NCBI RefSeq assembly: GCF_019139815.1
Contig: NZ_CP077079.1
Span: 5,835,001 to 5,899,000 of the forward strand
Length of the DNA: 64,000 nt
Direction of reading: 5' to 3'
Origin: Pseudomonas asgharzadehiana
GTDB taxonomy: Bacteria; Pseudomonadota; Gammaproteobacteria; Pseudomonadales; Pseudomonadaceae
Positions 22,666 through 40,408 of the stretch are shown here, piece after piece. How positions within the stretch are numbered: the stretch's first letter is position 1; every line of letters starts with the position of its first letter. Under the pieces are notes generated by a model that was given only the letters and a program-made list of their open reading frames with translations, was not told the origin of the DNA and did no database searches. A program made the translations under genes and the position numbers.

Positions 22666-22694
22666 TTGCGGCATGCCAAGTCGACGCTTATAGT
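22666..22694 (+). promoter_or_regulatory. Sigma-70 promoter of the DUF3077 leader transcript
   Basis: TTGCGG (22666-22671) and TATAGT (22689-22694) are separated by exactly 17 bp. Transcription from about 22701 would give a 240-nt 5' leader before the DUF3077 start codon. Confidence 0.55.
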
Positions 22695-22764
22695 TCGCCC
22701 CGTCGCCGGCATTGAATGGCGATAGGGTTTCGCAGCCCTAACGATACGTGTGTAACCAAGCATC

Positions 22765-22914
22765 ATGAATACAATGACGAGTGCATCTGCGCCCGACGTC
22801 TGTTTTATGGTGGCTGTGTGTGGGAGACCTTCGGGTCTGCCGGGTTCCTCGTATCCTCGGTCTGCGAACCCGCACACAGCTACCACCCATTCGTTTCGCA
22901 GCGAACGGCGGTAG
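22765..22914 (+). CDS. Possible 49-codon upstream reading frame inside the leader
   Basis: ATG at 22765 opens a 49-codon frame that runs through the whole structured leader and ends at TAG 22912-22914, 27 nt before the DUF3077 start. The product would be Ser/Arg/Pro-rich with no recognisable domain. No ribosome binding site precedes it. It could be a translated leader peptide, or a chance frame in a structured RNA. The hairpins around it suggest the RNA is what is under selection. Confidence 0.25.
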   Translation: MNTMTSASAPDVCFMVAVCGRPSGLPGSSYPRSANPHTATTHSFRSERR

Positions 22915-22933
22915 TCCTTTTAGATACGAGGAA
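22804..22933 (+). ncRNA. Structured 5' leader with anti-Shine-Dalgarno loop
   Basis: An outer stem joins GGTGG+CTGTGTG (22809-22820) to CACACAG+CCACC (22873-22879, 22883-22887). It encloses two hairpins. AGACC-UUCG-GGTCT (22825-22838) has a C(UUCG)G tetraloop. CGGGTTC/GAACCCG (22841-22847 / 22866-22872) has an 18-nt loop. In and beside that loop TTCCTCGTATC (22845-22855) is the exact complement of GATACGAGGAA (22923-22933), which holds the ribosome binding site of the next gene. A competing stem CTACC/GGTAG (22880-22884 / 22910-22914) would break the outer stem. Together these look like a cis-acting switch on translation. I do not recognise the class. Confidence 0.6.
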
Positions 22934-22941
22934 TATTTGCC

Positions 22942-23235
22942 ATGGTTCAACAACTCCCACCCCGCCGCTTCACGCCCTGCACCGAAACCGCCACCGATTA
23001 CCCAGTGCTCCTCATCGACAGCGACGCCCCATTGCTCGACCTCCACGCCTGCCTGCGCGAACGCCTCAACGCCGCCCTCGAACACCTCAACCTGATGGCC
23101 TGCTCCAGCCTGCCGGACTTTGCAGAGTGCGACTTGAATAACGTGGCCAATACCGCGCGCATTCTGGTGCAGGATGTGAGTGATGTGTTTCGGGTGGTTG
23201 AACAGCGAGGGTTCGATACTTCACCGCCAAGCTGA
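22942..23235 (+). CDS. Small DUF3077-type protein
   Basis: 97-residue cytoplasmic protein of unknown function that matches the pattern of the Pseudomonas DUF3077 family. After a Pro/Thr-rich start, residues 20-50 (PVLLIDSDAPLLDLHACLRERLNAALEHL) form a strand plus amphipathic helix. Residues 60-88 (AECDLNNVANTARILVQDVSDVFRVVEQ) form a second helix. It has no signal peptide or membrane segment. The ribosome binding site GAGGAA (22928-22933) sits 8 nt before ATG and can be masked by the upstream leader loop. It is monocistronic and ends at the strong bidirectional terminator before fba. Confidence 0.7.
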   Translation: MVQQLPPRRFTPCTETATDYPVLLIDSDAPLLDLHACLRERLNAALEHLNLMACSSLPDFAECDLNNVANTARILVQDVSDVFRVVEQRGFDTSPPS

Positions 23236-23250
23236 TCAAAATCCGGCCAC

Positions 23251-23285
23251 AAAAAGAAGCCCGCATCGCTGCGGGCTTCTTTTTA
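23251..23285. terminator. Bidirectional rho-independent terminator
   Basis: AAAAAGAAGCCCGCA, TCGC loop, TGCGGGCTTCTTTTT: a long stem with A-run and T-run on both sides. It serves the DUF3077 gene on the plus strand and fba on the minus strand. Confidence 0.92.

Positions 23286-38854: not shown

Positions 38855-40408
<1,554 letters not shown>

Follow-up and report, generated by a model that had tools for sequence, protein, structure and literature searches.

The leader of a small gene of Pseudomonas asgharzadehiana is very probably a C4-type antisense unit with the layout of the immI operon of phages P1 and P7, in which the C4 RNA would silence its target in trans and an upstream copy of that target, a1/b1, would compete for it. 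The unit lies on the forward strand (+) of the window, the whole stretch of 64,000 nt of DNA that was analysed, in front of a 97-aa open reading frame (ORF) at 22942-23235. C4 antisense RNA is an already known class; what is new, as far as the open-access papers searched show, is its multiplication on the chromosome with matched targets, together with the presence of two specificity types at one locus.

Identification of the leader as C4 antisense RNA

An Rfam search of the 64-kb window gives a covariance-model match to C4 antisense RNA (RF01695) at 22803-22890, with 83.1 bits against a curated cut-off of 45 (E 8.1e-15). The match covers the model end to end (model positions 1-87), and phage P1's own C4 scores 68.8 bits against the same model. 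Two features of the family are found in the leader: three stems (P1, P2 and P3) with covarying pairs, and two antisense segments, a' and b', complementary (7/7 and 11/11) to a2 and b2 downstream on the same strand, with b2 at the ribosome-binding site. We regard the identity of the leader as a C4 unit as close to certain. A sequence-only reading of this DNA had described a structured leader with a loop, TTCCTCGTATC (22845-22855), that is exactly complementary to the Shine-Dalgarno region, GATACGAGGAA (22923-22933), and whose pairing would mask translation. These elements are found where it placed them, and the 6.1-Mb genome, counting both strands, holds the 11-mer TTCCTCGTATC four times, two of the occurrences being the b'/b2 pair of the window.

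The class that this reading did not recognise is a known one. C4 and c4-a1b1 have been described as families (PMC2864571), and C4 in Pseudomonadales was predicted by Weinberg (2010), as cited in PMC5320573. The riboswitch, thermometer or protein-binding leader that it had suggested gave way to the C4 match, as nothing in the leader points to a ligand-binding or protein-binding site or to a thermometer; the Rfam scan of the leader lists C4 above and c4-a1b1 below the cut-off and no described riboswitch or RNA thermometer class. Matches above the Rfam cut-offs number two in the 64-kb window, C4 being one of them. A SAH riboswitch aptamer (RF01057) is present at 38872-38977 (+), with 65.7 bits for a cut-off of 37.

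Architecture of the unit and comparison with P1 immI

The unit starts with a sigma-70-like promoter (-35 TTGCGG, 22666-22671; -10 TATAGT, 22689-22694), in agreement with the promoter of 17-nt spacing reported earlier, and transcription would begin near 22701-22703. The promoter block TTATAGTTC is kept in an alignment of 21 orthologous leaders, and the TATAGT -10 is common to the window promoter and P1's promoter P1c4. The a1b1 region (22688-22748) is like Rfam c4-a1b1 (RF03163) and consists of two hairpins, the second of which (GGG...CCC) carries a1 in its loop; the match itself (22688-22743) is sub-threshold, with 24.0 bits where the cut-off is 46.7 (E 5e-4 in 401 bases). Here a1 (TTCGCAG, 22729-22735) is a 7/7 complement of a', and b1 (GATACG, 22743-22748) complements 6 nt of b'.

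The C4 RNA follows. Judged from the ends of P1's C4, the mature RNA would extend from about 22809 to 22887. A GGW rule has been given for the start of C4 processing (PMC5320573), and the window C4 has a GGU at 22809-22811, as in P1, which is a candidate RNase P 5' end; processing of this kind would yield an RNA of about 77 nt that begins with GG. In the predicted fold the 5' strand of stem P1 (22808-22824) forms 17 bp with its 3' strand (22869-22885), in which CTACC (22880-22884) can alternatively pair with GGTAG (22910-22914). Stem P1 encloses P2 (22825-22838), a hairpin with a UUCG loop, and P3 (22839-22861), a hairpin with an 11-nt loop. The unpaired letters of this fold are exactly the antisense segments: the loop of P3 (22845-22855) is b', the complement of the ribosome-binding site, and the 7-nt linker between P3 and P1, CTGCGAA (22862-22868), is a', which complements both a1 and a2. 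The hairpins drawn in the sequence-only reading are there as elements, but the letters of its CGGGTTC/GAACCCG hairpin belong partly to P3 and partly to the innermost part of the outer stem P1, and its 11-mer is the P3 loop. That reading did not contain the a'/a2 pair or a1/b1. Downstream, a2 (TTCGCAG, 22895-22901) lies in the loop of a small hairpin and b2 (22923-22933) forms the Shine-Dalgarno region of the 97-aa ORF. Behind the ORF lies a GC-rich inverted repeat (23250-23285) bordered by runs of A and T, which is likely to serve as terminator both for the unit and for fba, the convergent gene; on each strand the repeat also gives Rfam leader matches that stay below threshold.

This arrangement is that of P1/P7 immI (c4-icd-ant; RF01695, RF03163), which likewise has a three-stem RNA with a 7-nt a' and a loop b', one promoter, a1b1 upstream and a2b2 downstream at the ribosome-binding site. 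The order in the annotated P1 record is promoter, a1, b1, C4, a2, b2, icd, ant. The spacing is also similar: start to start, a1 and b1 are 14 nt apart in both P1 and the window, b1 and the GG of C4 are 74 nt apart in P1 and 66 nt in the window, and a2 and b2 are 29 and 28 nt apart, while the distance from the end of b2 to the base before the start codon is 10 nt in P1 and 8 nt in the window. Unlike P1/P7 immI, the target in the window is a small chromosomal gene that is not in a P1-like phage, the place of icd and ant behind a2b2 being taken by the 97-aa ORF and then fba; there are many units per genome, and c4-a1b1 is sub-threshold at the window.

Pairing specificity across C4 units

Complementarity was compared over a set of 179 loci, made up of all matches of three genomes (12, 55 and 42) and mostly top-scoring matches of others, and so an uneven sample. 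All could be parsed except L123 and L136, which lie below the cut-off and have no P3 motif, leaving 177 units. These two are identical C4-like stretches from two genomes (39.8 bits) that keep the outer stem and lack the usual P3, perhaps representing a different loop design. A perfect complement of the 7-nt a' was found within 40 nt behind C4 in 149/177 units, against 192/4425 draws (4%) when targets were taken from other units. The corresponding figures for a1 upstream are 152/177 and 245/4425, and both a1 and a2 are perfect in 144 of the 177. Counting each of the 45 distinct a' 7-mers once, a perfect a2 is present in at least one unit for 33 and both a1 and a2 for 31; the same tests with units of another a' give rates of 0.4% (a2) and 1.0%. 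At a' position 3 the pairs are GC in 86 units, AT in 53, TA in 25 and CG in nine, so that double changes are common. In stem P1, 97.4% of the cells are paired over the 177 units, with several pair types at most positions.

The b' segment behaves similarly and is weaker than a'. Its longest complement averages 7.47 nt downstream in the own unit against 4.78 nt with other units, and 6.63 against 5.10 nt upstream (177 units); in 51 of the 177 it falls short of 7 nt. Among relatives of the window unit (80 loci, of which 70 were parsed and 67 used, L228, L242 and L245 being dropped for low scores) it reaches 7 nt in only 49 of the 67. The pairing of loop and ribosome-binding site covaries among homologous leaders, the very observation whose absence the earlier reading had named as grounds for giving it up. 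The window b' forms its duplex with its own target (-19.4) as the first-ranked of all 177 targets. As the other-unit controls fall far below own-unit pairing, chance complementarity was rejected. In addition, a2 lies between arms of at least 4 bp in 114 of the 149 units with a perfect a2, compared with 74/885 random positions.

Specificity was also examined within genomes, with the rule that both segments must fit (six or more for a', seven or more for b'). In the three genomes taken in full, 8/12, 35/54 and 26/41 units fit their own target, against 1/132, 6/2862 and 7/1640 cross pairs; the units within each set are therefore largely insulated from one another, with one third of the units failing the both-segment rule even with their own target. 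One genome has three tandem C4 units within 1.8 kb (G005:C1:3628832-3630617), of which L093 and L094 have a common a' and b' and L129 differs. The window's own genome (G000:C1) contains TTCGCAGATGGATACG five times, at 1933362, 2888196, 3110824, 3702719 and 5609408; it is an a-b-like pair whose halves are 3 nt apart, perhaps within a repeated gene.

Two specificity types at one locus

The first 21 of the 80 relative loci (L180-L200) are flanked by the alginate lyase gene, by the aldolase gene or by both. In all 21 and in the window (22 genomes) a' is identical and a1 and a2 are perfect complements of it. The b segments fall into two types: type 1, with b' CTTAACTC and b1/b2 GAGTTAA(G), at 13 loci, and type 2, the GATACG type, at eight loci and in the window. 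At this fba locus b1, b' and b2 switch together between the two types, whereas a1, a' and a2 are fixed. Complementarity follows the type, b' matching b2 over 8-11 nt within its own type and 4-6 nt in the other, and b1 over 6-7 nt and 3-6 nt respectively.

Letters of the P1 stem and of the a2-b2 spacer also vary with type, and the leader therefore seems to move as a cassette. Seven changes of type are needed on the best flank tree, against a mean of 7.2-7.3 for shuffled labels; four of the 19 inner branches of this tree are well supported and these force only one change of type, the ORF tree forcing two. The loci of P. salomonii (L196) and P. edaphica (L197) are paired in the ORF tree (96/93) and have different types. 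We read the two types, from sequence comparison, as a probable sign of recurrent exchange of a specificity cassette, independent change being less likely.

Alternative folds of the leader

When the window leader is folded from 22702, the minimum free energy (MFE) structure has the outer stem open, b' paired with the ribosome-binding site in cis (11/11) and CTACC with GGTAG (5/5), at 2.4 kcal below the fold in which C4 is kept. The competing stems of the sequence-only reading are thus present; the second stem, however, carries no covariation specific to the unit (5.59 nt in the own unit, 4.24 shuffled and 5.24 in other units). It was rejected as a conserved switch, standing above the shuffles without being unit-specific. 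The cis b':b2 fold is the MFE structure in only two of the 21 orthologous leaders (L185 and L192). When C4 is folded with the RNA downstream of it, stem P1 is kept in 166/177 units and b' pairs downstream in three. For leaders taken from a1 onward, C4 (P1) is kept in only 74/152 units, with b' paired upstream in 67/152 and downstream in 6/152; among the orthologous leaders, again with the upstream part, C4 is kept in 6/21. Sequestration of the ribosome-binding site in cis as a general state was rejected on these downstream counts. Forcing C4 in leaders with the upstream part has a median cost of 1.1 kcal, and nested folding of C4 with a separate target predicts no gain (-58.7 against -58.7) because loop pairing lies outside that model.

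Since the alternative folds of the whole leader are nearly equal in energy, a cis switch may be possible. A leader that senses a ligand or temperature in cis would draw on the same near-equality, but the C4 match, the layout of P1 and the fact that three distant segments change in concert while no aptamer-type loop is conserved make such a sensor highly improbable. The fold energies are too close to decide between the structures and, as modelled, fit a competition among three partners (b1, C4 and b2), as in IsrK and P4 CI.

The first of these, IsrK of Salmonella Gifsy-1 (PMC4825925), resembles the window in that an upstream RNA and a read-through mRNA with complementary parts come from one promoter; in Gifsy-1 the stable RNA STnc1160 is processed from the read-through mRNA. 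As that paper describes it, short IsrK activates its own silent read-through mRNA, and by analogy the window mRNA could be silent in cis and be switched on in trans by a short a1b1 RNA that the same promoter makes, a1b1 taking up C4 or the sequestering segment and C4 being mainly a part of the mRNA fold and not a free repressor. The cis-silent MFE of the window leader and the upstream pairing of b' in many units would suit this, as would Rfam isrK (RF01394) matches that overlap a1b1 in four of the 15 sources scanned; a terminator after a1b1 (T5 or longer), which would give rise to a distinct a1b1 RNA, is found in 46/177 units against 17/885 shuffles. At the window itself, by contrast, the Rfam scan gives no isrK match, the terminator after a1b1 is weak and the cargo is another, and the cis-silent fold is rare among the orthologues. 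We consider an activator of this kind rather unlikely as the main mode of action, although it shares its parts with the C4-repressor model and both may hold. The CI RNA of P4, with seqA and seqC, is like the C4 model in that a processed antisense RNA lies between two of its own targets; unlike the C4 model it is described as acting on transcription termination (PMC4825925).

Distribution of C4 and of the genes behind it

The genome of the window has 12 C4 copies. In the genus, C4 is present at E<=0.001 in 54 of 59 Pseudomonas genomes (own included; 53 over the cut-off, none in five), and 37 of the 59 have ten or more copies, with up to 55 in one genome; another has 42. C4 is found in 66/99 genomes and 17/19 genera of a family-level sample and in 7/185 genomes of a class-level sample, the seven including the own genome and a second member of its family; C4 is absent from all 14 control genomes. 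Stricter filters were applied in C4 searches over 40 genomes.

Of 157 distinct ORFs behind C4, seven were excluded by eye as spurious ahead of the family scans; 12 of the 177 units have no ORF by the rule used. This rule favours starts about 8 nt behind b2, and the peak in spacing (110/140 at 5-11 nt) is therefore biased. Among the 150 ORFs, matches at E<=0.01 are to DUF6124 (96), DUF3077 (14) and Bro-N (8), and the PHROGs antirepressor families match seven or eight of the members each. Seen from the gene side, with C4 at most 500 nt upstream on the same strand in three genomes, 7/8, 35/41 and 26/32 DUF6124 genes (68/81 in sum) and 2/3, 5/6 and 5/6 DUF3077 genes (12/15) stand directly behind C4, some genes matching both models. 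Conversely, 79 of the 109 C4 copies in these genomes are followed by a DUF6124 or DUF3077 gene. By eye, the L103 and L127 proteins behind C4 have a DUF6124-like TPNPP start joined to a Bro-N-like part, a fusion that is a possible link between antirepressors and DUF6124-like families.

Chromosomal multiplication has a parallel in the Group 1 C4-like sRNAs of A. baumannii, which are also many per chromosome with variable a'/b' and are reported to be expressed and apparently processed (PMC5320573). The Pseudomonas units differ in having adjacent matched targets from recurrent gene families, which the consulted part of PMC5320573 does not describe for A. baumannii. For the Acinetobacter RNAs superinfection immunity has been suggested (PMC5320573), whereby a chromosomal C4 silences the antirepressor mRNAs of incoming phages and the neighbouring gene is a by-product. 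The Bro-N/antirepressor genes behind C4 in 8/150 units, C4-like DNA in 27 Pseudomonas phage records (partial matches) and the two types at one locus could be taken in this sense. We hold it to be quite improbable here, as C4 matches its own adjacent gene and its commonest target, DUF6124, appears in one of 50,697 phage records with one representative as query.

The target protein and its neighbours

The gene had been called DUF3077 from its sequence, which did not survive comparison with the databases: the 97-aa ORF (22942-23235) matches no Pfam family at E<=1, DUF3077 (PF11275) included, nor any family of NCBIfam or PHROG. At E<=0.001 the search gives 218 relatives, and among the best 120 of them many are named fructose-bisphosphate aldolase. 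The gene after the unit is a class II aldolase (the convergent fba) and the gene before it an alginate lyase; the small protein has no aldolase domain, and its name has surely been taken from the neighbouring gene. An unannotated 7.4-kb 'Bacteriophage sp.' record of faecal origin, MT837218.1, is 85% identical to the window ORF over its positions 745-1006.

The protein is modelled as a helical hairpin of two helices. Two models (mean pLDDT 80.8 and 79.3) have no PDB match at E<=0.001, the likeness of SrfA (7xnj) to the model being only the common helical-hairpin shape, and profile searches of PDB sequences with the target family gave nothing credible. A profile comparison with DUF6124 is weak (probability 3.6%), and the two families are therefore not called homologous.

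Small proteins in many copies per genome, with some units decayed to the point of having no ORF, might also suggest a toxin-antitoxin-like arrangement, with a protein that is harmful to the cell and C4 as the RNA antitoxin; in P1 the gene under C4 control, icd, is annotated as a cell-division inhibitor. Against this, the proteins have no fold or family match and many species have the window gene at the same chromosomal place, whereas most addiction modules are not known to keep one fixed place across species. Such a function is unlikely.

Proposed mechanism and implications

RNase P processing of C4 and the heteroimmunity of P1 and P7 have been described (partly in PMC5320573 and PMC12197685). 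By homology, repression in trans by C4 is likely in the window. One promoter would transcribe the whole unit, from a1b1 through C4 and a2b2 to the gene, and the C4 part would fold into its three stems and probably be excised by RNase P. The b' and a' of the processed RNA would then pair in trans with b2, at the ribosome-binding site, and a2 of the read-through mRNA, which would stop translation of the 97-aa protein. As a second, upstream copy of the target, a1/b1 may occupy C4, so that expression would be set by the balance of a1b1, C4 and a2b2.

A broader view is possible, if on the unlikely side, and is offered tentatively. Pseudomonas chromosomes may carry many mutually insulated units of the P1 immI type, with C4 as the usual control element of host families (DUF6124, DUF3077, Bro-N-like and unnamed ones). 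The three-part types would pass from one species to another at fixed loci, in the manner of types of immunity or self-recognition, like units being silenced and unlike ones being active, for example on entry of DNA from another strain. The two types at the fba locus raise the question of why the type of specificity switches at an otherwise fixed locus.

No papers on DUF6124 were found in the open-access literature searched, and DUF3077 is represented there by one paper (PMC9630843). A link of C4 with DUF6124 or DUF3077 genes was not found described in the open-access papers searched, subscription papers being mostly outside the search. The target gene is an example of a database name, fructose-bisphosphate aldolase, spreading to a small protein through its neighbour alone. 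The dozens of insulated antisense pairs in one cell form a natural set of such pairs. In a well-studied genus, a known phage immunity RNA appears to have become the regulator of large gene families that are uncharacterised, and the DUF6124 and DUF3077 families thereby gain a testable regulator.
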